Part shown: in pieces, positions 15,415 to 63,620 of the stretch
Layout: each line of letters opens with the position of its first letter
Numbering within the stretch: the stretch's first letter is position 1
NCBI RefSeq assembly: GCF_900101505.1
Contig: NZ_FMZI01000005.1
Location: 124,001 to 188,000, forward strand
From: Antarctobacter albus
GTDB taxonomy: Bacteria; Pseudomonadota; Alphaproteobacteria; Rhodobacterales; Rhodobacteraceae
DNA: 64,000 nucleotides
Reading direction: 5' to 3'
The notes under the pieces: model-generated
What the model was told of the DNA's origin: nothing
Databases searched by the model: none
What the model saw: the letters and a program-made list of their open reading frames with translations, nothing else
Made by a program: the position numbers and the translations under genes

Positions 15415-16608
15415 TCAATAGGTCTCGACGTGATAGCGGCCTTCCTCGCGAAGGACATCGCGCAGGTTGCGCCACTGCTGGCCGATGCTTTCGGCGATAT
15501 TGGTGAACGAGCGTTCGACGCCCTCCTCCATCTCCTTCAGCCCGCAGATGTAGATATGCGTGTTGGGGTCCTGCAGCATGTCGGCCACGATGTCCTCTTC
15601 GACGCGCATCCGATCCTGGACGTATTCCTTGTCCTGGCCGGGCATCCGGCTGAACACCAGGTGCTTTTGCAGCAGGCTGGAAGGCACCTTGTTGAGCGGT
15701 CCGAAATAGGGCAGCGAGTCCGGCGTGCGTGCGCCAAAGAACATCACCATGCCGCCGGATTTCTTGCCCACGGTGCGCTGACGCGCCATCGTGAAGGACC
15801 GCATCGGCGCCGAGCCGGTGCCGGTGCAGATCATCAACAGGCGGGCATCGGGATCGTTCGGCATCAGGAAGGTCGCCCCGAAAGGCCCCGTCACCTGCAC
15901 TTTGTCACCCTTTTTCAGGTCACAGACGTAGTTCGAACAGACGCCGCCTTCCTCGCGCTTCACCGTCAGAGAGACGTTGTGATAGCCCGCGCGTTCACCG
16001 TCACGTGGTGAAGAGACAGAGTAGAGCCGCGGCAGGTGCGCCTTGCCCTCGGCATCTGTGCCCGGCGCGATGATGCCCAGCGACTGCCCCTCAAGAGCGG
16101 GAAAGGGCTTGCCCTGGAAATCCAGGATGATGTGACGAACATCCGTGTCCGCGCCTTCGGCGGTCAGGCGATAGTTGCCCTGGACTACGGCCTCGACCGG
16201 GTTGGCGAGGTTGTAGAGGTTGACCGTCGGCTTGGCCGCGCTGGCGGGCGCCTTTGCCTTGCCGCCAGCGCCCTTGTGCGCCTCGGCCAGCAGGGCCGCC
16301 ACCGGGTCCTCACCGCTTTCGGTGCCGTCCTCGGCGCTTTCGGCCACGGAAACCTCGCCCTGTTCGGGCAGTTCCATCCACTCGTATTGCTCTTCGAGCG
16401 AATAGGGTTTCTCGACCACGCGCCATTCGTCGATGGACCCGGTCGGACAGACCGGGATGCAGTCCATGCAGAAATCGCAGGCATCCGCGTTCACGACGAC
16501 GTTGTTCTCGTCATGCTCGATCGCGCCCACGGGGCAGGTCATCTCGCAGGTATAGCAGCGGATGCAGATTTCCGGGTCGATCAGGTGCTGTTTCAGCGGC
16601 TTGTTCAT
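15415..16608 (-). CDS. boxA: Benzoyl-CoA 2,3-epoxidase reductase component BoxA
   Basis: A 397-residue iron-sulfur flavoprotein that takes electrons from NADPH and passes them to BoxB. The N-terminus carries two 4Fe-4S ferredoxin motifs, CIRCYTCEMTCPVG and CDFCMDCIPVCPTG (residues 15-55). A linker rich in Ala and Glu (about 80-140) leads to a ferredoxin-NADP reductase domain: FAD motif RLYSVSSP near 208 and NADP motif ICTGTGSAPMRSF near 275. The start overlaps the stop of the preceding Cys-rich gene by 4 bases. Cytoplasmic. Confidence 0.94.
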   Translation of the reverse strand: MNKPLKQHLIDPEICIRCYTCEMTCPVGAIEHDENNVVVNADACDFCMDCIPVCPTGSIDEWRVVEKPYSLEEQYEWMELPEQGEVSVAESAEDGTESGEDPVAALLAEAHKGAGGKAKAPASAAKPTVNLYNLANPVEAVVQGNYRLTAEGADTDVRHIILDFQGKPFPALEGQSLGIIAPGTDAEGKAHLPRLYSVSSPRDGERAGYHNVSLTVKREEGGVCSNYVCDLKKGDKVQVTGPFGATFLMPNDPDARLLMICTGTGSAPMRSFTMARQRTVGKKSGGMVMFFGARTPDSLPYFGPLNKVPSSLLQKHLVFSRMPGQDKEYVQDRMRVEEDIVADMLQDPNTHIYICGLKEMEEGVERSFTNIAESIGQQWRNLRDVLREEGRYHVETY

Positions 16609-50829: not shown

Positions 50830-51509
50830 CGCGTCACCACCTCGCGCAGCGCGATCTCTGGCCGGGCGCGGTGATCGCGCGCGTAATGCGGCGCGGCCCC
50901 GGTCGGATTGACCAGTTCGAACAGCCCGTGCGCCTCGAAATGGACGATGTCGCCATCGCTCACCGCGCTGCGCAGGCAGGGTTCCACCTGCAGGGTCTGT
51001 TCCGTGCCGCTGGTGTCCAGCACGCCGACCACTTCGAAGGGCCAGTCGTCGTGGCTCAGCCGCTGGCCCATCTGGACCGGCGTGCCCGTGGGCGCGTAAT
51101 CGACGGTGATCTGCGTGGCCCCGATCGCATGGGCGCCGACCGCCAGGCCGAAGGGCGTATAGGCGAACCCCAGCCCGTTCGAGAAATACTGGCCTTCGGA
51201 AAACGGCACGCCCTGCGCGGCATGACTGCCCGCCATCGCCGCCCAGTCCGTCCCCAGCGGGTCGATCATCGGCAGGCGGATCACCCGTTCGCGCCCGCGC
51301 GCCATGCTGACCACGGCCCGCCAATGCAGGATCGCAGCGCGGTGCAGGTGCAGCTTCGGCTGCCCCGTCCAATGCGGAAAGGCCGAGGTGAACATCTGGT
51401 TGATGTTGTTCGTTGTCGGCCCCGCGTCCTGGCCGCGATGGTCGAGGGTCCAGTTAATGCCACTGGACCGGACAAGGCTGCGTGGCACGGTCAGGATCTC
51501 GCGCGCCAT
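50826..51509 (-). CDS. Distal tail protein candidate
   Basis: A 227-residue, mostly beta protein (MAREILTVPRSLVRSSGINW start) directly after the tape measure gene, the usual place of the distal tail protein. Start and stop overlap its neighbours (TGATG and ATGA). No catalytic motif seen. Confidence 0.6.
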   Translation of the reverse strand: MAREILTVPRSLVRSSGINWTLDHRGQDAGPTTNNINQMFTSAFPHWTGQPKLHLHRAAILHWRAVVSMARGRERVIRLPMIDPLGTDWAAMAGSHAAQGVPFSEGQYFSNGLGFAYTPFGLAVGAHAIGATQITVDYAPTGTPVQMGQRLSHDDWPFEVVGVLDTSGTEQTLQVEPCLRSAVSDGDIVHFEAHGLFELVNPTGAAPHYARDHRARPEIALREVVTR

Positions 51510-53605
51510 CAGAGTGTTCCCCTGCCCTGCAGCTCGCCAATCATGGCGCCGAAGTTCTGGCGCTGGAACTGCGCGTAGCCGCCAAGCTGTTGCAGGCTGC
51601 GGGCCTCTGCCGCGCGCATCCACTGCACCTGCACGCCGTCACCGATGCCGATGAACGGGATATCCTGCTGACGGCCACCCGACCCGCGCCGATAGTCGCC
51701 CGCCGCGTCCGAGGACCAGCGTTCGCGCGGGTGCACGACGGCCATCATCCCGCCCTTGCCATCGACCCCGCCAGAGCGCGGCCCGTTGCCGGTATAGCCG
51801 CGCGTGTCGAAGCTGGGCAGGAGGCCCCCGACCACCGATTTGACCAGCCCCATGATGCCACCCGTCACCGGCTGGCCCGCGATGGTGCGATAGAGCGCGT
51901 ATTCGATGGCGGCGCGGGCAATGGCCTGCTTGAGCTGATCAAAGGCGTTTTTCTGGCCCATGATCGTGTTGATCACCGCATCCCGGCCCTGCTGGACGTA
52001 GCGGGTGAACTGCTGTTGTCCCTCGCTGGCCTTGCGGTAGGCCTCTTTCGTGGCCTCGACATGGCGGTTGTAGACCTCCTGGCTGATCCGGCCCGTTTCC
52101 AGCAGCTCCTGCGCCAGCCGCATCTTGGCGTTGTATTTCTCCAGTGCCGTTGTGGTGGCCCGGCGGATGCGCAGCGCCTCCTGATCCAGCCGGTTGGCCT
52201 CTCGCGAGGCAGCACCGCCGCCACCGCCGGCGACGTCCGGCAGCTTGAATTGCAAGCTCTTGGCAAGCTGGGCCCGCGGATCGTTCGTCTGCCAGTCCTT
52301 GATGGACCCCCCGAAGTTGCGGGGATCGCCCCCACGCCCGCGCCCGACCCGGTTTGCATAGACGGCATTGTCCGCAAGCGCCTGAGCGACACCGGCAGCG
52401 TAGACAAAGGCTTGCCGTAGTTGATCGACCAACCCCTCGGCACTTTTCTTTGCGCCGTCGAAGCTAATCCCTTCTGCTGCGTCTCCGACATCCCGCGCCA
52501 GTGCGGCGGCAGCGTCTGTCGCGTTCGACAATTCGATCATGCGGTCCACTGCCGCGCGGAACTCTGGCGGAAGATTGTTGGCTTCCACACCCGCCCTTTC
52601 GAGAAACGCGACCATTTCCTCCAGCGCTCTCTGCTGTTCGGGAAAGGTGGACGCCGTGAACATGTCCTGCAGGATTTGTTCGAGTGCGATTGCCTCGGTA
52701 CGACTGGTCCCAAACGCAGTCGAAATTCGGTCGATGGTCCTTTCAAAAGCGTAGCCGCTTTCCGTCGAAATGATGAACTGCGTCAGGAGATCGTCCAGCA
52801 CACTCGTTTGGGCCTGCAGAGCCTCTCGCGCATCGCTGACCCGGATCTGGGCCTGGAACTGGGCGAACTCTCTAACCCTGTCCGCAGCAGCACCGTACTT
52901 GTTGGTCAACTCCACAAGATCCATCGCGAGCAAGTCGGACGAATCCCCAAGGTCCGACATGATCAGATCCAAATCGGCGAGGGAGTCCTCAAATTCCTTT
53001 CCACCGTCCGCAGCATCGAAGAACGACATGGCGAGCGGACCCATGACGGCGGTCACACCGCCAGCAAGAACACCCCAAAGACCAAAAACAGCCAACATGT
53101 CTGCCGCCTGAATGGAAAGTGCGTTCATGTAGTTGCCCGTCACAGCGCCCTGTTGTGCCACTTGGTTCAGCTGGTAGGCGAACATCTTGGCATTGTTTTG
53201 AGCCGCAGGACTAAGACCCCTATTTACCCCGACACTGGCCGTGTCGACCAATTCCATCGCCGTGGCCGCGCTGCGCGAGCGCGTCTCGAGGCCGCGAAGA
53301 ACCTCGGCGGCCTCCTGCTGAGAAGTGACCCCAAGCTTCACCGCCCGGTTGACCTGGGCCTGCGCCCTCTCGAACCGCATCTGGGCGGCATAGGCCGGGT
53401 CGATGCTGGCCTTGAGCGCCTTGAACTGCCGTTCCTCCGCATCCAGCATCCGCTCGAACGCCTTGGCCGACTTCTCCGCCGACTTCTGCCCGCGGTCGAT
53501 CTTTTCATAGGCCTGCCGGCCCGAGTCGCCGATCTTCTTGAACCCGCCCTCGACCTGTTGGCCGCCGGCGAGTTCAGCCCGGTATGTGACCTTCCGCTGC
53601 ACCAT
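51509..53605 (-). CDS. Tail tape measure protein
   Basis: A 698-residue, mainly helical protein with an N-terminal coiled coil (about 20-105), a hydrophobic segment (MLAVFGLWGVLAGGVTAVMG, about 169-188) and a Gly-rich C-terminus. The length predicts a tail of roughly 100 nm by the usual scaling, but that is only a rule of thumb. The part around 52420-53250 has visibly lower GC than both ends, suggesting a recombined middle. It follows the tail chaperone genes as usual. Confidence 0.85.
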   Translation of the reverse strand: MVQRKVTYRAELAGGQQVEGGFKKIGDSGRQAYEKIDRGQKSAEKSAKAFERMLDAEERQFKALKASIDPAYAAQMRFERAQAQVNRAVKLGVTSQQEAAEVLRGLETRSRSAATAMELVDTASVGVNRGLSPAAQNNAKMFAYQLNQVAQQGAVTGNYMNALSIQAADMLAVFGLWGVLAGGVTAVMGPLAMSFFDAADGGKEFEDSLADLDLIMSDLGDSSDLLAMDLVELTNKYGAAADRVREFAQFQAQIRVSDAREALQAQTSVLDDLLTQFIISTESGYAFERTIDRISTAFGTSRTEAIALEQILQDMFTASTFPEQQRALEEMVAFLERAGVEANNLPPEFRAAVDRMIELSNATDAAAALARDVGDAAEGISFDGAKKSAEGLVDQLRQAFVYAAGVAQALADNAVYANRVGRGRGGDPRNFGGSIKDWQTNDPRAQLAKSLQFKLPDVAGGGGGAASREANRLDQEALRIRRATTTALEKYNAKMRLAQELLETGRISQEVYNRHVEATKEAYRKASEGQQQFTRYVQQGRDAVINTIMGQKNAFDQLKQAIARAAIEYALYRTIAGQPVTGGIMGLVKSVVGGLLPSFDTRGYTGNGPRSGGVDGKGGMMAVVHPRERWSSDAAGDYRRGSGGRQQDIPFIGIGDGVQVQWMRAAEARSLQQLGGYAQFQRQNFGAMIGELQGRGTL

Positions 53606-54289
53606 GTCCTGCGCTTTCGATTTCCTGGTCTGCCGCTTCGTTGATCGCGGCCACCGCCGCCTGCTCGATCCGTGGCATCAGCTCCGCCACGGCGATGCGC
53701 GGGATGCCCAGGGCATCCCCGACCGCCAGCACGGCGGTCATGTCGTATCCGATGACCCGGCCAGGCAGGGCGCGGATCTGTCCGCCGCAGCGCAGGGCCA
53801 GGTCCCAGACCTGCCGCCCCTCGATGCTCTGCGGTGCGTTCACCTTCATCGGGCAGGCGTCACAGACGCCCGCGCAACTGCTGCAATAGCCGTCCGAGCC
53901 GAAATGCCATTCGGCCCGACGGCTCAGCCGTTTCCCTCTTCGTCCACCGCCAGCGCGGGCAGGACGTACTTGTCCATGAACGCCCGGTAGATCATCCCGT
54001 CCTCAAGCATCGCGTTGATGTAGTCGCGCGAGGGTTCGATCGGGTTGCCGTTTTCGTCGCCGACGCCCTCCCAGGCGACGATCACCGCCCGCGCCAGCCC
54101 CTTGGCAAAGGGCACCATCCCGGCGGGCTGGGGCGCAGCATCTTCGGGATCTGCGTCAGGGTCCGCGCCCTGGCGCATGTCCAGGCGGACTTGCTCGACG
54201 ATCGTGCTGCCAGCAGGCAGGACCTGCACCTGCACGCCGCGCGGCAGGTCGATCCAGTAGGGTTCGGGTTTCAGGTTCAGGTTCAGCAT
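53574..54289 (-). CDS. Tail assembly chaperone fusion gpGT made by -1 frameshift
   Basis: Two frames, 53924-54289 and a second one open from 53936 down to a stop at 53574, are joined by the slippery heptamer G_GGA_AAC at 53936-53930. Slipping by -1 bypasses the TGA at 53926-53924 and yields about 238 residues: gpG-like residues 1-120, then a Cys-rich linker (GYCSSCAGVCDACP) and the T-like domain (MKVNAPQSIEGRQVWDLA onward). Lambda gpG/gpGT uses the near-identical G_GGA_AAG. An ATG at 53849 could also start the T part alone. Confidence 0.72.
53924..54289 (-). CDS. Tail assembly chaperone gpG-like
   Basis: A 121-residue protein (MLNLNLKPEPYWIDLPRGVQ start) lying between tail tube and tape measure genes. 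The zero-frame product ends shortly after the slippery site. It would coat the tape measure protein during tail assembly. The start overlaps the tail tube stop by one base (TGATG). Confidence 0.75.
   Translation of the reverse strand: MLNLNLKPEPYWIDLPRGVQVQVLPAGSTIVEQVRLDMRQGADPDADPEDAAPQPAGMVPFAKGLARAVIVAWEGVGDENGNPIEPSRDYINAMLEDGMIYRAFMDKYVLPALAVDEEGNG
53930..53936 (-). promoter_or_regulatory. Slippery heptamer G_GGA_AAC for -1 ribosomal frameshift
   Basis: Read on the minus strand in the gpG frame as GAG GGA AAC GGC TGA, this gives X_XXY_YYZ with X=G, Y=A, Z=C. The stop follows one codon later and the -1 frame is open for 29 codons up to the downstream ATG and on to 53574. Confidence 0.72.
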
Positions 54290-55239
54290 CAGTAGCTCTC
54301 CACCGTGTTCAAAAGGGTTGCGGTCAGCATCGCGCTGTCGTCGGTGGCGCGCGCCGCCATGAAGCTGAAGTTGGCCTCGATCCCGCCGGGCCCCTCGACC
54401 GGGCGGCCGGGGACGGACAGGAAGACGCGCGGCATGGCCAGGGTCAGCTTTTCCGTGGACGATTTCGTCAGCACGAAGGACAGCGCGATCGGCGTGCCCG
54501 CCTTGGCGGTGGCGAACAGGCTTTCGCTGGCGAAACGCAACCGCAGGTTCCCGGTCATGGCGGCACGCATCGGGTCCAGCCCGCCGATGAACTCATCGCC
54601 GGTCACCGTGTCCACCTGGTCCAGGTTGTTGCTGAACGTGAAATCCGCCGAGACCACGTTCGCCTGCGCCGAGGCGTCGATCTCGACGCTAGCCTGCCGC
54701 TGCATGAAGCGCGACAGCGCGTAGCTGGACGGCGTCCCGGCGGCGGTGCTGGAGGCCGGGGCCGTCACCGCCTGCCCGATCACGCCCACCGTTCCATTGA
54801 CCCGCCCACCCCGTTGTAGCGTCAGGCGCAGGGTGTCGGCGCGACAGCCGCGGAACATCTCGTAGCTGGGAACGTCCGGCACCTGCTTTTCCAGGCTGAA
54901 GCTGGGCAGCGACCAGGCACCGGATTCGAACGTGTGGATGTAGTAGCCAGAGTTACCCGAGTTGTCGCCGCTAGTCGGCGCGCCCATCAGCGCCTTGAGC
55001 CAGAAGCCCAGGGCCTCCAGGTCAATCGGGATGCCGATGTCGCCCGCGACATTCGCCACGTCAAGGTCCGCATCGCCCGGGTCGCGGGTGCCGACAAGGT
55101 CATCCTCGATCAGCCCCCGGTCCAGCGCCAGCCCGTTGGACATGTGCGGCAGGAAATAGAACCCGCTGCCCGGTGCCGTCTTTTCGGTGCTTTCGAATGC
55201 CGCGGCGGCCAGTGACCGCTCGCCCCTTCCTCGTGCCAT
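54289..55239 (-). CDS. Major tail tube protein
   Basis: A 316-residue beta-rich protein (GSGFYFLPHMSNGLALDRGL near the N-terminus; VTGDEFIGGLDPMRAAMTGN in the second half). The length and place just before the tail chaperones fit a two-domain siphovirus tube protein. A strong AAGGAGG precedes the ATG. Confidence 0.75.
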   Translation of the reverse strand: MARGRGERSLAAAAFESTEKTAPGSGFYFLPHMSNGLALDRGLIEDDLVGTRDPGDADLDVANVAGDIGIPIDLEALGFWLKALMGAPTSGDNSGNSGYYIHTFESGAWSLPSFSLEKQVPDVPSYEMFRGCRADTLRLTLQRGGRVNGTVGVIGQAVTAPASSTAAGTPSSYALSRFMQRQASVEIDASAQANVVSADFTFSNNLDQVDTVTGDEFIGGLDPMRAAMTGNLRLRFASESLFATAKAGTPIALSFVLTKSSTEKLTLAMPRVFLSVPGRPVEGPGGIEANFSFMAARATDDSAMLTATLLNTVESY

Positions 55240-57015: not shown

Positions 57016-57966
57016 TCAGGTCGCCGTCGCCATGCAGGCATGCTGCCAGAAGCCGGGACCGCAGTTCGCCCAGTAGTCGAGACCAAAGGTCCAGCGGTCG
57101 TTGTCGAACTCTTCTTCCGAGCCCTCCGCCTTGGCCTTCATCTGCGGTTCGGTTTCCTGCTGCCAGATCACCGGGGCCGCCTGCCCATCCGAACGGAACA
57201 CGCACAGCTTGTCGGTCCAAGACAGGCCGGAATCGTCTGCGAGCGTGATGTTGTAGTTCGGCATGTTCGGCAAGAAGTTGGTGTCACCGCCACCGAGGAT
57301 CGGGTTGTAGATCGCCGCCATTGCAGCATCCAGGTATCCGTTGGGAACCACGACAGTGAAATTCCGCGCCGAGCGGTTCATCGGGCGGCCCCGATCATCC
57401 TTGAAGCCCTTGATGGCCTTGATGCAGGCCGTGACCATGCCACGCACTTCCTCCGCCGACGGTGATGTGGTCGATCCGTGGACGGAAGCCGGAAGCGCGC
57501 TGATGTCGACCGACAGGTCGTTCGACTGCGTTCCGCTTTCGCCTTCGGAATGGTCCGTATCGAAGAAATACTGGCCATCGTAGCAAACCAGGGCCTCGGC
57601 GCCGTCCAGCATGTCAACGATCAGTTCGTGTTTGTGGTTCGCCGCCGACACCGCCAGGTCGTCAATCTGGCGCATGATCTGCCCGGTCTTGTCGCGGCGG
57701 ATCCAGCTGATCGGGATTCCGATCCCGTTTGCCCAGTGGATGTTCTCGATGGTGATGCCGTTCTCGCGCAACCCGTCGATGATCCGGCTGCCCTTCCATT
57801 CCGTCATCAGCGGAGCGGCGCCCAGCCACTTGTACGTCTCAGAGTCCTGGTCGGACTCGAACGTGGCCGAGATATCATTGATCCAGCCCTCCGACATGAT
57901 CTCTTCGAGCCGCTGGTAGAAGGTCCCGATGATGGCCCGGGAAGAAAGGCCCTTGTTCTTGCTCAT
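57016..57966 (-). CDS. Major capsid protein, Mu gpT family
   Basis: A 316-residue capsid protein. YKWLGAAPLMTEWKGSRIID (about 45-64) and LVCYDGQYFFDTDHSEGES (about 126-144) match the hallmarks of phage Mu major head subunit gpT (Mu reads TYGWLG and CYDGQNFFDKEH). The fold should be HK97-like. Combining a Mu-type capsid with lambda-type portal, protease and terminase marks the head module as mosaic. Confidence 0.85.
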   Translation of the reverse strand: MSKNKGLSSRAIIGTFYQRLEEIMSEGWINDISATFESDQDSETYKWLGAAPLMTEWKGSRIIDGLRENGITIENIHWANGIGIPISWIRRDKTGQIMRQIDDLAVSAANHKHELIVDMLDGAEALVCYDGQYFFDTDHSEGESGTQSNDLSVDISALPASVHGSTTSPSAEEVRGMVTACIKAIKGFKDDRGRPMNRSARNFTVVVPNGYLDAAMAAIYNPILGGGDTNFLPNMPNYNITLADDSGLSWTDKLCVFRSDGQAAPVIWQQETEPQMKAKAEGSEEEFDNDRWTFGLDYWANCGPGFWQHACMATAT

Positions 57967-57983
57967 CTGTCTGTCTCCTGTGA

Positions 57984-58403
57984 TCAGGCCGCCGCGCCGA
58001 CAAGCGCTGCGTCGAACTCGACGATCGCCACGCCAGAGGACACGAAGCGTTCGACATAGCCGATGTGGGAATTGCCGCTGGCAACCAGCGTGAAGGTGTC
58101 GTCGTCGCTGGCGTAGACCGCCGGACGATCGTTGTCGGTGATCGCAACGGACGCGACCGCCAGCTTGATTTTGCCCTTGGTGCGCACCGTCACGTCGATG
58201 TCACCGGCGGACCCGGCCGAGTTGTCGGCGGTCTCGATGTTGAAGCCCAGGAACCGGTCCCCGGCCTGGAGCGGGCGGGCATAGCCCGACCCGTTTTCAC
58301 CGACGGCGGCGCCCTCGTAGATCACGTCGGACGCGATCACCGGATAGGCGCTCTGGTCGCCCGGCAGGTACTGCCGCGGGCTGTCTGCGGGAAGAGTCGT
58401 CAT
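57984..58403 (-). CDS. Capsid decoration (cement) protein
   Basis: A 139-residue beta-rich protein (DQSAYPVIASDVIYEGAAVG near the N-terminus; FLGFNIETADNSAGSAGDID next) placed between protease/scaffold and capsid genes, as decoration proteins are. It probably stabilises the expanded head. Confidence 0.78.
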   Translation of the reverse strand: MTTLPADSPRQYLPGDQSAYPVIASDVIYEGAAVGENGSGYARPLQAGDRFLGFNIETADNSAGSAGDIDVTVRTKGKIKLAVASVAITDNDRPAVYASDDDTFTLVASGNSHIGYVERFVSSGVAIVEFDAALVGAAA

Positions 58404-58432
58404 CTTTCTGTTTCCTTTCGATCAGCGGGCGA

Positions 58433-59827
58433 TCAGCCAGCCCGGTTGAGGATACGAACGCGGCCCGAAGCCTGGGCCTCCTGGAACTTCAGGTAAGCGT
58501 CCTTGTTACCGCCGAACTCGGCGCGCAGGTCGGCGTCGCGGTCCCAGGCGGCCTCGGCCTGTTCCTCGGGCGTGCCACCCGCGCCTTCGGTCAGGGTCGG
58601 GCGTTTCGGCACCACCGCCGCCGCATCGTCCTGCGCAGCCAGGTCCGCGACGTAGCCGGCGCCCTTGGCCTTGTCCGCCTTGACCATTTCCAGCGCCAGC
58701 GTCTCGGCGGTCCAGCCTTCGGCCTTGGCCTTGGCGACCATGTCCTCGGCCCCCGGGCGGGCGATGTCGTCGATGGCTGCCACACGGGACCGCTCTTTCT
58801 CCAACGCTGCGGCGACGGCGGTTTCAGTGTCCGAGGCCGCGCCGGACTTGGCCGCGCTCTCGATCTCGGTCACCAGGTCGGCCCGATGCTCGCGCAGCCC
58901 GGCCAGGGTCAGATCTTCCCAGTTCATGGAAGTCTCCTTTGCTGCGGTGGCGGGGGCCGCGGTTTCATTGGTCCGGGCCGCCAGCCCCGAACCGGTTTCC
59001 ATGTCTCGCGCACCAGACAGTGCGCCGATCACGCCGGACATCGTCCCGCGCGCATCGACCATCCCGCGGCGCTGCGCCTCGGCCCCGTCAAAGACGAGGC
59101 CCTGCCCGAAGCGGTCCAGCACCTCGGCTGAGGTGACACCCCGCATTTCGGCCACGGTGTCGACGAACTCCTGCCCGGCTGCATCGACCAGCGCCTGCAG
59201 TTCGGCCTTGCCCTCAGGGCTCTCGGGATCCAGCCGCTTGTTCGGGCTCTGCTCTGCGACCACGCGGACGATCCTTGCGCCCATCGCCTCGAACAGCGGT
59301 TCCATGTCGATGTATTCGATGACGGCCCCGACAGATCCGACCATCGCGCCCGACCCGACGGTGATGCGGCTGGCCGCGCTGGCCAGGTAGTAGGCCGCAG
59401 AGGCAGCCGTGCCGCCGACAAACGCCTCGACCGGCTTGTCGCCGCTCTCGCGCAGGAACCGGGTGCAGTCGTCGCAGCCGGCCACCATGCCGCCGCCGCT
59501 GTCGATGTCCAGGACAATGGCGCGCACCGCGGGGTCCGCCTGTGCCCGGGCCACGTCCCGCGCGATCTCTTCATAGGACCAGAAGTAGAAAGAGAACTGA
59601 CGCAGCAGCAGACCGCGAACGGGCACCACGGCCACGCCATCGACCACGCGGGCAAAATCGGACCCGTCGAGGATTTCACCATCGGCCAGAGCCGCGACCT
59701 CCTCGGTCGACTGCGCACTGCGCGCGGCTTCACGCTGACGCACGGCCTGCGCGATCATCATTTCATCCGGCCGCATCGCCCAGATGCGGCCCGAGCGGTC
59801 AACCTGCATCGTGCTTTCAAATGGCAT
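58433..59827 (-). CDS. S49-family prohead protease with scaffold domain
   Basis: A 464-residue protein. Residues 60-280 form an SppA/ClpP-like serine protease: LDIDSGGGMVAGCDDC (oxyanion loop), GTAASAAYYLAS with the nucleophilic Ser, and SPNKRLDPESPEGKA with the catalytic Lys. The Ala/Glu-rich C-terminal 160 residues look like an internal scaffold, removed during head maturation, as in lambda gpC/Nu3. Its start overlaps the portal stop by 11 bases. Confidence 0.88.
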   Translation of the reverse strand: MPFESTMQVDRSGRIWAMRPDEMMIAQAVRQREAARSAQSTEEVAALADGEILDGSDFARVVDGVAVVPVRGLLLRQFSFYFWSYEEIARDVARAQADPAVRAIVLDIDSGGGMVAGCDDCTRFLRESGDKPVEAFVGGTAASAAYYLASAASRITVGSGAMVGSVGAVIEYIDMEPLFEAMGARIVRVVAEQSPNKRLDPESPEGKAELQALVDAAGQEFVDTVAEMRGVTSAEVLDRFGQGLVFDGAEAQRRGMVDARGTMSGVIGALSGARDMETGSGLAARTNETAAPATAAKETSMNWEDLTLAGLREHRADLVTEIESAAKSGAASDTETAVAAALEKERSRVAAIDDIARPGAEDMVAKAKAEGWTAETLALEMVKADKAKGAGYVADLAAQDDAAAVVPKRPTLTEGAGGTPEEQAEAAWDRDADLRAEFGGNKDAYLKFQEAQASGRVRILNRAG

Positions 59828-61406
59828 GGCGTGCCCCCGGTGCTGTTTCAGTGTCCGACGTGTCGTCGTCGTCTTCCTCGTCCGGACCTTCGGCGGCTAA
59901 TCCGGAGGCGCCGACAGCATCGCTGCCGTCCTCCTGCCGCCGCTTGCGGACGTCGCGGTGATCCAGGCCAAAGCGCGCCGCGGTGATCGCGGTCAGCGAG
60001 GTGGCGCCCATGTCCAGGTATTCCCGGTCCGCCTTTGCGTCCTTGACCGGGTCGATCGAGATCCGCGCCGGTCCCATCCAGGTCGCGCGCAGGTAGGCCT
60101 GCCGCATCAGCGGGTTGTCGAAGAACCCGGGCGCCGCGATCAACCCGCGCGCCACCGCCTCCGAGATCACGGCCTCGTAGACAGGACGGCAGAACTGGGC
60201 GACATGCTGCGCCCGGTCCACGCGAAAGAACTGCCAGGCCATTTCAAGCGCGGCGCGGCTGGCGGAATAGCTGGCCTGGAACTTCTTCAGCAGCAGCTCG
60301 TAGGGCAGATCGGTCCCTGCCCCCACCTCCTGCGCCACCGCCTCGATGAACGGCGTGAACTGCGGCGACGGGCGCCCGGGCGCGAAGCTTTGCACGGACT
60401 CGCCGGGCAGCAGGTCGAACACCATCCCCGGATCAGTCAGCCGGATGTCCTGTTTCGCGTCCGACCCACCTGAACCGGAGGTTTTCAGCCCCTCCGACAG
60501 GTCGCCCCCCTCCGAGGTCATCCCGATCGCGAAACAGGCGCTGACCACAGCGGCCTGCAACTCTGCCTCGGTGTATTCCGACCGCTGTTTCAGCGAGGTG
60601 ATGACCGGCGCCAGCATCGGGGCATAGCGGCTCATGTCCGGGCGCCAGCGCGTGTTGTGCACGTGCAGGACCTGCCATTCACCGCGCGCGCCGTAGGCCG
60701 GGATGCGCTGCCAGGTCGTGCTGCCCTTCAACCCACGATCGAGGACGTAACGGTCCGCAACGTGGTAGGCCACGGCGGCACCGTCCTCGTCGAACTCGAT
60801 CCCGCCGGCGATGTCGTCGCTGTCGGTCCGCCAGTGCGGGTTGCTGATCCGGTCCGCCTCGACCACCTGCACCGCCGTCGCCAGCAGGCGCCCTGCCCGG
60901 CGCTTGAACCGCCGAACGACAAAGACATCCCCAGACAGCAGCCGCGACCGAAAGACAAGGTCCTCCAACTCGCCGAAGGTCTGGACGCGCGTAATGTCGC
61001 AATCCCGGCACCCGGCCCAGTCGGTCCAGATGTCCAGCGCCTCGCGCTCCCAGGCGCGGGCCTGGTCTGGCGTCATCCGCAACCGCTCCGCGTCGATCTC
61101 CGGGCGGACCATGTGCCCGGCCCCGATCACGTTGGTGACCTTGGTCGCGATCGACGACTGCCCGATCGGATCGTTGCGGACCAGGTCGCGGGACCGCCCG
61201 CGCAGTTCGTCGAGATCGGGCAAGGTGTCCGCATCCGCCGAGGCAGCAGCACCACGCCAGTTGACGGTCACGTTCCGATCACGCCGCGCACCAGCATAGC
61301 CCGACGCGGTGGAGAGGGCGCTGCGATAGCGCAGACGGTCAAGACCTGTCTTCGGGCTGATCCAGCCGATCAGGCGGTCCGCCAGGTTCTGCTTGGCAAC
61401 CTTCAC
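59817..61406 (-). CDS. Portal protein, lambda gpB type
   Basis: A 529-residue lambda-type portal. Landmarks are NWRGAAASADADTLPDLDEL, ELEDLVFRSRLLSGDVFVVR and YELLLKKFQASYSASRAALE (about residue 375). The C-terminus is very acidic (EGPDEEDDDDTSDTE). It forms the dodecameric DNA entry ring. The start overlaps the gpW-like stop (ATGA). Confidence 0.9.
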   Translation of the reverse strand: MKVAKQNLADRLIGWISPKTGLDRLRYRSALSTASGYAGARRDRNVTVNWRGAAASADADTLPDLDELRGRSRDLVRNDPIGQSSIATKVTNVIGAGHMVRPEIDAERLRMTPDQARAWEREALDIWTDWAGCRDCDITRVQTFGELEDLVFRSRLLSGDVFVVRRFKRRAGRLLATAVQVVEADRISNPHWRTDSDDIAGGIEFDEDGAAVAYHVADRYVLDRGLKGSTTWQRIPAYGARGEWQVLHVHNTRWRPDMSRYAPMLAPVITSLKQRSEYTEAELQAAVVSACFAIGMTSEGGDLSEGLKTSGSGGSDAKQDIRLTDPGMVFDLLPGESVQSFAPGRPSPQFTPFIEAVAQEVGAGTDLPYELLLKKFQASYSASRAALEMAWQFFRVDRAQHVAQFCRPVYEAVISEAVARGLIAAPGFFDNPLMRQAYLRATWMGPARISIDPVKDAKADREYLDMGATSLTAITAARFGLDHRDVRKRRQEDGSDAVGASGLAAEGPDEEDDDDTSDTETAPGARHAI

Positions 61407-61615
61407 GACATGACCCCGCGCTTGAAGGCGCTGCGCGTGCCAGCCGCGCGGTTCTTGAGCGTGATCAGCCGCTGTTCCTCGGCCCGAAGGGCGGGCATGT
61501 CCAGGTAGGTCACCCGCTGCCCTTCCAGCTCGTAGGACTTCATCTTGCCGGCCAGAATCGCGTTGATCGCCGCCTGCACCAGGGCAAGCCGCGCCGCGTA
61601 GTCGATGTCGCTCAT
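61403..61615 (-). CDS. gpW-like head-tail connector
   Basis: A 70-residue protein of lambda gpW size and pattern (ALVQAAINAILAGKMKSYEL; LDMPALRAEEQRLITLKNR). It probably binds the portal and forms the tail docking site. The ATG at 61615 lies 7 bases after the terminase stop, and the stop overlaps the portal start. Confidence 0.82.
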   Translation of the reverse strand: MSDIDYAARLALVQAAINAILAGKMKSYELEGQRVTYLDMPALRAEEQRLITLKNRAAGTRSAFKRGVMS

Positions 61616-61622
61616 GTGATCC

Positions 61623-63620
61623 TTACCTTGCCCGCCCGCGCAGCCTGCGCTGGCGTGTCTGTACCGTTGCGACCCCATCCTCGACCGGGGCCACCTGGAC
61701 GGCAGCCTGTGTCTCGAACAGGTCCGGTTGATCTTCCGGGGCCTCGACCCCGCGTTCCGCCTCGAGGGCGGCCCATTGTTCCCTGGTCATCGAGGTCCAA
61801 CCCAGCTCGCGCGCCGCCGCGTCCGAGTAGATCATCGTGTCCAGTCCCTCGTTTCGCCGTGTCGGTTCGACCAGCTGCCAGTTGCTGACCATCACGCCGA
61901 CCCGGTCGCGTTTCAGCACCCGCACCTCCGATGTGATCTGGCGGAAATACTCATCCCCCAGGCCCTTCGCGAAATGCACGTACCCGCGCGCCAGCGGATC
62001 GTCCTTGCCCAGCCAGGTGTAGAAATCCGCCTTGAGCTGCGAGACGTTCAGGATCCGCCCCTGACGCCGCGCGGCGCGGGCCCGGGCATCCTTGCGGTCG
62101 CCCATGACCATCCGCTTCATGATCGGCCCGGTCTGGCCGGACCCGCCCTTGACCACGATCAGGCGCTTGGCCTGCCACCGCTTGGCGAAGGCCCAGACAT
62201 CCTCTGTGTAGGTGCCGCCGTCGATGGCCATGCGGTCCAACGGCAGGCGGTGCCCCTTCTCGGTCCGCCAGGTCGTTTTCAGCAACGCATCCAGCGCCGC
62301 CCGCCCCTCTTCGCTGCCGACGTGATGCGGGATCACCCGGTACTCGATCACCCAGCGCTGGTAGTTCGCGCCATAGGCCACCACCTGCACCTCTGTCCGA
62401 TCGAGCTGACAGTCCACGCCCGCCGTCAGGATCACGCCCCGCGCCGGCACGATGCCGACCCCGCGGCCCTCACCGTCCGGCACGTTCTCGACCCGGTCGC
62501 GCAGTTTTTCCCAGTCCGGCCCCTTGCTCGCCTGTTCGTAGGGCAGGCCCAGGACATCGTTCCAGAATGTCTGTTCCGTCTCTGCTTCGACCTTGTCGCG
62601 CAGCGCCTGTTCTGTTTCGCCGCTGACCTTGGCCGTGGTCCAGCCCATGACCTGCGCGTATTCGTATGCGATCGAGGCCCAGTCCCGCTGCGGCCCGTAG
62701 GCCCGCCACAGGTGAAACCCCGGGTGATCGCCGCGGGGGTTCGTCGCCACCCACTTGCCGTTCGCGATCAGCGCCGGCTTGTCCGAATGCCGGATTTCGC
62801 AGCCGCAGGCTTCGCAGGTGAAATGCGCATCGGCCAGGTTTTGCGGGTCGATCCGCTTCTTGAAGTTCTCCCAGGTCAGCGGCGCCATGTTGCCGCAATG
62901 CGGGCATGGCACGTTGTAGTACCGCTGGTCCGACCGCGCAAAGGCGGCACTGATCCGGCAGGCCCCCAGGATCTGCGGGGTCGAGGCGCGCAGGATCTTC
63001 GCATCCTCGAAAGCGGCGGCCCGGCTGACCGCCATCGCCTCGGGGTCGCCCTTGGCATGCATCTCGAACTTCGACAGGTCGTCCATAACAACCAGCCGGT
63101 GCGAGGTCTGCGCCAGGTCATCCGGCGACCCGGCGCTGGTCACCTTCAGGATGCCGGACCGGTCCAGAGTTTCCTGCCGAAACTTGGCGTCGCTGTTCTT
63201 GTCGGCCCCGCCGCCGCGCCCGAACATGCGCCGCAGCGACGGCGCCGCCCGGCGGATCGGATACCACTTCTGGTCGATCCAGTCGGTGGCCGCCTTGTTC
63301 GTCGGGTGCACCACCAGCGAATTGAGCGGCATGTATTCATGCCAGGCCGCCACGGTCGGGTTGATCACCGATTCCGTCTTGGCGATCTGGGCCGATCCCC
63401 GCAGCGTCACTTCCCGGCAGGGATGCTCCGGGCTCAATACCGCGTGGATCTCCGCCAGGAACTGCACCGGACGGATCGAGAACGGGCCGGGAAACGGCGA
63501 CCGCTCGTCGAAGACGATGTTCTCCCGGCACCAGCGCGTGATGTCGGGTGGCGGCGGCGGGCGCATGGCATCGGCCATCGCCGAGGCGATGACGGCCCGC
63601 GCCGAGGTCAGGAAACCCAT
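61623..63620 (-). CDS. Terminase large subunit, lambda gpA family
   Basis: A 665-residue terminase. The ATPase Walker A is RGSAQIAKTES (about 74-84), atypical in having Ala before the Lys; the Walker B candidate is LVVMDDLSKFE. A zinc site follows (CPHCG and CEACGC). The C-terminal nuclease has DCQLDRTEVQVVAYG and RMAIDGGTYTEDV as acidic elements. It cuts and packages the concatemer. Start at MGFLTS, one base after the small subunit stop. Confidence 0.9.
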   Translation of the reverse strand: MGFLTSARAVIASAMADAMRPPPPPDITRWCRENIVFDERSPFPGPFSIRPVQFLAEIHAVLSPEHPCREVTLRGSAQIAKTESVINPTVAAWHEYMPLNSLVVHPTNKAATDWIDQKWYPIRRAAPSLRRMFGRGGGADKNSDAKFRQETLDRSGILKVTSAGSPDDLAQTSHRLVVMDDLSKFEMHAKGDPEAMAVSRAAAFEDAKILRASTPQILGACRISAAFARSDQRYYNVPCPHCGNMAPLTWENFKKRIDPQNLADAHFTCEACGCEIRHSDKPALIANGKWVATNPRGDHPGFHLWRAYGPQRDWASIAYEYAQVMGWTTAKVSGETEQALRDKVEAETEQTFWNDVLGLPYEQASKGPDWEKLRDRVENVPDGEGRGVGIVPARGVILTAGVDCQLDRTEVQVVAYGANYQRWVIEYRVIPHHVGSEEGRAALDALLKTTWRTEKGHRLPLDRMAIDGGTYTEDVWAFAKRWQAKRLIVVKGGSGQTGPIMKRMVMGDRKDARARAARRQGRILNVSQLKADFYTWLGKDDPLARGYVHFAKGLGDEYFRQITSEVRVLKRDRVGVMVSNWQLVEPTRRNEGLDTMIYSDAAARELGWTSMTREQWAALEAERGVEAPEDQPDLFETQAAVQVAPVEDGVATVQTRQRRLRGRAR

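Follow-up and report, generated by a model that had tools for sequence, protein, structure and literature searches.

Is the pair of tail chaperone-like reading frames in a 64,000-nucleotide (nt) stretch of Antarctobacter albus DNA (contig NZ_FMZI01000005.1, positions 124,001 to 188,000; hereafter the window) expressed as two separate proteins, or is the second frame (T) joined to the first (G) by ribosomes that slip back by one base near the end of G? Comparison of the locus with its relatives indicates that a G-T fusion generated by -1 frameshifting is very probably a true biological product. The frameshift itself is of a known kind, frameshifted tail chaperones being textbook biology; what is added here is a conserved stem-loop and a family-wide module of four cysteines (Cys4) at the beginning of the shifted frame.

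The slippery heptamer and the shifted frame

The locus contains the following features:
53924..54289, minus strand: G-like tail assembly chaperone open reading frame (ORF) of 121 aa, 0 frame, ending ...GAA GAG GGA AAC GGC TGA
53936-53930, minus strand: slippery heptamer G_GGA_AAC (GGGAAAC, X_XXY_YYZ phase), near the 3' end of G
53574..53936, minus strand: T-like frame reached through the -1 shift; 120 codons, counted from the heptamer (coordinates including the stop)
53888..53924, minus strand: predicted stimulatory stem-loop (15 bp, one bulged G, 6-nt loop), beginning 5 nt after the heptamer
53853..53885, minus strand: Cys4 motif CSSCAGVCDAC (C-x2-C-x3-C-x2-C), a putative metal knuckle and the first module after the slip
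53847..53849, minus strand: ATG, the likely T start for a gene caller, not conserved

The original prediction, made from this DNA alone, derived the heptamer from the codons GAG GGA AAC GGC TGA, and its coordinates, codons and phase on the minus strand proved correct. In the 0 frame the heptamer is followed by a single codon (GGC) and the stop TGA. The -1 frame is free of stops from the heptamer to the stop codon at 53576-53574, in agreement with the earlier statement that it stays open from the slip site through 29 codons into the T-like frame; these first 29 codons (GGG..CCG) are followed by the ATG at 53849, with which the listed T ORF begins. The bridge peptide YCSSCAGVCDAC is encoded in the -1 frame. 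The predicted fusion is composed of 120 residues of G and 118 of T, which gives the 238 residues already proposed. Since GGGAAAC occurs in the window at chance frequency (7 copies on both strands, versus 8.7 expected from shuffles), the case for a frameshift rests on the comparison with relatives.

The first search used the 120-residue -1 frame as the query, so that the slip codons supplied its first two residues. Within the same family, 55 of 248 genomes matched (the window's own included), as did 15 phage records and 9 viral contigs. A canonical XXXYYYZ heptamer lies exactly at the aligned codon in 106 of the 109 fetched loci (L003-L111). The three loci without a usable site were dropped: L009 (no T match), L111 (E 0.07, not a relative) and L108; removal of duplicates then reduced the 106 loci to 102, all of which carry the heptamer (83 AAAAAAC, 15 GGGAAAC, 3 AAAAAAA and 1 AAAAAAT). 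It is likewise present at the slip codon of all 88 distinct loci from whole genomes, against a background of 12 occurrences of any XXXYYYZ at 15,598 other slip-phase positions in the same genes of these 88 loci. Both counts (102 and 88) include the window's own copy.

As the first query contained the slip codons, the heptamer test was repeated with the DUF7697 model, whose start lies 56 residues further into the frame. Two overlapping sets of genomes were searched, 385 from the class and 398 from the phylum, and in each of them 14 genomes matched at E <= 0.001. This second set comprised 33 places: 28 distinct ones with the heptamer (24 AAAAAAC, 3 GGGAAAC and 1 AAAAAAA), one duplicate and four without it, namely L203 and L218 (both below the family cut-off and in unrelated context), L231 (at a contig edge) and L200. 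Eight further places were left out, seven of them repeats of places already counted and the eighth (L211) the same remnant as L108. Eighty loci found by a pattern containing the slip codons were excluded from all slip counts, and the search of same-family genomes gave five partial matches, four of them cut by a contig end and one (L307) an isolated relic.

Relatives lacking the heptamer or carrying stops between the two frames were sought specifically, and the failures (L108/L211, L200, L307 and the contig-end copies) were judged truncated or decayed. In L108 (contig C6) a remnant of the T domain is fused to the tail tube region, while G and the bridge are gone, which looks like a deletion in a decaying prophage. 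L200 (contig C122), which scores above the family cut-off, is frame-broken: its T domain continues in the G frame and its Cys motif lies in another frame; it is either a decayed copy or the result of a sequencing error.

The pattern of sequence variability indicates which frame is under selection. Entropy was compared across 64 gapless relatives with at least 30 open codons in the 0 frame, counted from the slip. Upstream of the slip it peaks at G codon position 3 (0.90 bits vs. 0.66 and 0.49). Within the overlap the peak moves to T codon position 3, equivalent to G position 2 (0.76 vs. 0.42 and 0.39), and past the overlap the T position 3 pattern is stronger (1.19 vs. 0.45 and 0.44). A subset of 19 sequences sharing less than 80% identity gave the same, though weaker, pattern (1.09, 0.93 and 0.80 upstream; 0.50, 0.55 and 0.86 in the overlap). 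The variable codon position thus switches at the heptamer, and therefore the coding frame changes there.

In most relatives the 0 frame of G continues for about 30 codons beyond the slip; in 58 of 88 loci the length is 32 codons when counting starts at the slip codons. An immediate 0-frame stop was observed in the window's clade and in L088, L098, L100 and L105, and may have been gained more than once.

The predicted stem-loop downstream of the heptamer

A stem-loop at a spacing of 5-7 nt is the usual stimulator of ribosomal frameshifting. The one predicted here, which is conserved and had not been reported in the original prediction, has in the window a z of -3.37 over the first 60 nt past the heptamer and of -2.93 over 77 nt counted from the heptamer; an outer 4 bp may lengthen it. 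For 40 diverse loci, the 50 nt from +12 gave a mean z of -2.65, with 78% of the loci below -2, compared to means of 0.03 and -0.40 for T and G controls of the same length.

An alignment of 35 diverse relatives contains a 13-bp helix beginning 7 nt after the heptamer, in which 88.1% of cells are paired; when the partner strand is slid by 1-3 columns, the pairing falls to 43-53%. Both sides have changed at 8 of the 13 pairs, and none of 500 shuffles reached any of the five measures applied. Slid structures also give 6-9 double-changed pairs, so this count alone is weak, and the strength of the result lies in the percentage paired and the shuffle control. RNAalifold run on the alignment returned a weak consensus (-4.76 kcal/mol, 8 pairs). 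With the encoded peptide held fixed, native codons fold at a mean of -25.1 kcal/mol, compared to -15.9 kcal/mol for synonymous recodings; 28 of 34 loci fall within the best 5% of their recodings, while each of two control stretches reaches this level in 2 of 34. For the window, whose stem-loop differs in sequence from the majority and has one bulge, yet keeps 15 pairs, only 0.1% of 1000 recodings were as stable. As judged from these sequence data, the element starts 5-7 nt past the heptamer, covaries and is more stable than the encoded peptide demands.

With the heptamer, the -1 frame and the downstream stem-loop all conserved, the original prediction of a programmed -1 frameshift to a G-T fusion is upheld. 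In phage lambda, according to the review PMC5009743, the tape measure protein is bound by G and the tube protein by T, the products occur at a ratio of 30:1, GT is produced by the shift, and G and T are absent from the virion. In the window, most ribosomes would make G (121 aa), while a minority would pause at the stem-loop, slip back one base on G_GGA_AAC and synthesize the 238-residue fusion, presumably at the low level assumed from the outset. By analogy with lambda, G would coat the tape measure protein, the T part would recruit tail tube subunits, and both would leave before completion of the virion. The Cys4 segment, as the first part of T, would probably bind one zinc ion and position the DUF7697 domain beside G.

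Several results weigh against this scheme. Over 80 nt the stem-loop signal is weaker (mean z -1.43, controls 0.00 and -0.47, 28% of loci below -2), and in the set found with DUF7697, where the mean z is -2.8, just 17 of 28 places lie below -2. At the A site, 98 of the 102 distinct loci have AAC and none has AAG; in Escherichia coli A_AAA_AAC is much weaker than A_AAA_AAG (PMC5009743), and A_AA.C is not among the shifty tetramers of PMC4066793, although the same paper treats an A_AAA_AAC insertion-sequence cluster as a proven frameshift case. Because AAC sites are disfavoured in E. coli, the efficiency of the slip in this host is uncertain. Structure comparison brought no fold match of T at E <= 0.001, viral or PDB, and alignment of the T model to 17 PDB chains by VIA gave no Z of 2 or above. 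The links of G to solved chaperones are weak: its model (predicted local distance difference test score, pLDDT, 78.5) gave VIA Z values of 5.6 with YqbN 3klu (94 aligned residues, 4.2 A) and 3.5 with HK97 2ob9 (85 aligned residues, 5.2 A), both below a trustworthy level.

The Cys4 bridge and the T family

The bridge was previously described as unusually rich in cysteine. The cysteines are indeed there, but within the family they are the rule: all 102 distinct loci have at least 4 Cys in -1-frame residues 16-60 (four in 84, five in 17 and six in 1), and the 28 further DUF7697-found loci all have at least 4 within their first 55 residues. In alignment A1, consisting of the window and 32 loci picked for diversity from the 102, residues K2, W10, C18, C21, C28 and P29 are invariant, and C25 is present in at least 90% of the rows. 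The layout C-x2-C-x3-C-x2-CP occurs in 85 of 102 loci, an x9 spacer in 7, and other spacers in the remainder. In L042, L070, L071, L104 and similar loci, insertions between the Cys pairs (CAPYEGREQAC; repeated CEPS in L104) leave the cysteines undisturbed.

Two short Cys pairs flanking a spacer of variable length are the usual layout of a zinc knuckle, and on the evidence of its sequence the Cys4 module is rather likely to bind zinc. A Pfam search of 33 members, in which no zinc family scored significantly and the zinc and 4Fe-4S matches were at chance level, counts against this assignment. The spacing of the four cysteines alone cannot discriminate zinc from an iron-sulphur cluster or disulphides, and one of the 33 members has a chance-level Fer4 match (E 0.029); with the knuckle-like arrangement of the pairs, and with disulphides being improbable in the cytoplasm, where tails are assembled, we regard these alternatives as unlikely, though worth keeping in mind.

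The stem-loop overlaps the codons of a conserved RAEWHFG stretch, which might suggest that conservation of the bridge is a by-product of the RNA structure and that the Cys motif has no role in the protein. The Cys codons, however, begin at +51, just 3' of the core stem-loop, whose stem ends at +48, and the length of the spacer between the pairs varies while the cysteines persist, which makes this explanation very improbable. A similarly slender chance is given to a feedback loop, in which the Cys4 knuckle, confined to the product of the -1 frame, would bind the adjoining stem-loop RNA and damp or stimulate further shifting, so setting the G:GT ratio; all intact relatives examined have this possible RNA-binding module, and most of them have the RNA element by prediction.

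Residues 57-104 of T match DUF7697 (PF24752) with E 8.6e-20 and 70.9 bits, compared to the curated cut-off of 27 bits. This was the sole Pfam match of T at an E-value limit of 1; G had no Pfam match, and neither was matched by the families of lambda gpG and gpT. G matches PHROG 313 'Tail assembly chaperone' (E 1.3e-6). PF24752 and phrog_11212, both of which match T in the window, begin at about residue 54-57 of the T frame and omit the Cys4 bridge. The module is easily missed because the gene caller starts T later, and because both the Pfam model and the best-matching PHROG begin after it. Another family of unknown function, phrog_23549 (103 positions), has matches in 9 of the 33 members (best E 3.1e-7) and in some of them extends into the bridge (residues 18-116 of L109 and 26-104 of L069), so part of the bridge is already within a catalogued family. 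Phrog_680, labelled tail length tape measure protein, weakly matches 19 of 33 T members (best E 5.6e-5). NCBIfam gave nothing convincing for these proteins, and no convincing solved relative of T or G was found by sequence.

The AlphaFold model of T (pLDDT 86; 75-76 over bridge residues 11-30) consists of a helix, a Cys-bearing loop and a helical domain with two short strands. Among viral folds its best match is a Serratia phage Scapp protein named 'Tape measure chaperone' (probability 1.00, E 0.079); several of the other viral matches also carry the name of a tape measure or tail assembly chaperone. The subset of sequences chosen for the T model (A2) combined the window with 50 of 83 distinct viral ones, and that for the G model (A4) combined it with 36 of 47. 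The idea that T is a duplicate of the G fold was rejected, with a profile comparison probability of 0.3%.

A sister family is that of the DUF1799 T proteins (PF08809), whose distal domain is apparently related (12 of 33 members match DUF1799 weakly, best E 0.0019). A sample of 20 of 24 places was used, the other four being DUF7697 members of one genome. All 20 have an A_AAA_AAC or G_GGA_AAC slip, whereas 17 of the 20 bridges have no Cys and the others have 1, 1 and 3, without a paired motif; the stem-loop signal is also weaker (mean z -1.54, 8 of 19 below -2; 19 of the 20 entered the stem-loop recoding test). In lambda, the 146 codons from the slip hold no Cys. As the motif is common to all our loci and absent from the 20 DUF1799 bridges and from lambda T, it characterizes the DUF7697 branch and is not peculiar to this prophage. 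The Cys4 family is found chiefly in prophages of Alphaproteobacteria, with further members in cyanophage and gut phage records. Our search of the open-licence literature found neither a mention of zinc, cysteine or the Cys4 bridge for frameshifted tail chaperones nor a paper naming DUF7697, and a combined search on the slip sites returned nothing. How T recruits the tail tube is, in our judgement, poorly known, and a Cys4 module at the start of the shifted frame offers a mutable handle on it.

The start of T and relations to known systems

If G and T were two separate genes, T would be initiated from the ATG at 53849, and it would be an accident that the -1 frame between them is open. The window does have this ATG, and records of Synechococcus and Nostoc phages with the same genes annotate G and T separately. 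The comparison with relatives contradicts this: ATG is absent from T-frame codons 3-50 in 83 of the 88 whole-genome loci, the window being among the five that have one, and any ATG, GTG or TTG up to 14 codons past the Cys motif is found in 13 of the 88, with a Shine-Dalgarno-like 4-mer in 1 of these 13, i.e. in 1 of 88 loci overall. Moreover, the peptide upstream of the ATG, with its invariant residues listed above, is among the most conserved parts of T. Independent expression of T thus has hardly any probability left; its start codon is not conserved, and by sequence T appears to be read solely via the shift. Slippage of RNA polymerase, suggested by the seven or eight consecutive A residues at the site in most relatives, is just as improbable, as the site is GGGAAAC, not a homopolymer, in the window and in 14 other distinct loci, and the stem-loop has the spacing of a ribosomal stimulator.

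From its sequence features, the window pair is best placed in the lambda-type G/GT class as a putative new member, in which AAC replaces AAG. The likeness to lambda claimed in the original prediction holds for the arrangement: both share the order tube - G - T - tape measure, a slip near the end of G with G_GGA_AA, and a GT made by the shift, although the lambda record annotates T as a separate coding sequence (CDS). It does not extend to the sequences: G lacks a Pfam match, T belongs to DUF7697 and has the Cys4 bridge, and the slip of lambda is GGGAAAG, with AAG at the A site, where the window has AAC. The near-exclusive use of AAC at the A site provides a testable point on slippage rules outside E. 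coli.

A dedicated tRNA-Lys(CUU) as an explanation of AAC was not supported: among 49 tRNA matches in the genome, tRNA-Lys(UUU) appears twice and no ordinary CUU was seen, in a set that may be incomplete (one of the 49 is cut by a contig end and unreadable, and no tRNA-Tyr was seen). A tRNA-like gene lies beside tRNA-Lys(UUU) on contig C14 of the same genome (L267:209-285, minus strand); ARAGORN reads it with a four-base anticodon, cttc.

Among phages, the Rhodobacter phages RcBaka, RcKemmy, RcKvothe, RcKai and RcSwan resemble the window in having GGGAAAC, the Cys4 module and a joined tail assembly chaperone CDS, the latter annotated in all five records fetched (of eleven matched). Their G shares 36-37% and their T 52-53% identity with the window proteins, and they differ in that their 0-frame G extends about 30 codons past the slip, whereas that of the window stops at once. 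PMC8601537 implies frameshift sequences in the tail chaperone genes of most of the Rhodobacter phages that it covers, and names RcZahn as one without clear evidence. In the haloarchaeal viruses HCTV-1 and HCTV-2, whose hosts are archaeal, the g-t slips are G_GGA_AAC and A_AAA_AAC (PMC5009743). The Synechococcus phage Sc-Yong805-1 (OP858991.1, L005) has a G/T pair with an AAAAAAA slip, annotated as separate genes. The CDS before its G (L005:563-1501) is labelled a site-specific tyrosine recombinase; it matches Phage_tube_2 (E 1.6e-52) and is a mislabelled tail tube gene.

The neighbours of the pair in the window are as follows:
54289..55239, minus strand: tail tube protein (Phage_tube_2, E 7.4e-52), upstream of G
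51509..53605, minus strand: tape measure protein (phrog_1538 tail length tape measure, E 8.1e-8), whose start overlaps the end of T

T was also matched at 98% in a genome record of Mameliella sp. CS4, and the host is accordingly a probable roseobacter. The prophage is a mosaic, long-tailed one: positions 57016-63620 hold a head module with a lambda-type portal, a gpA-type terminase and a Mu gpT-like capsid protein, and an S49 peptidase is also encoded further along.

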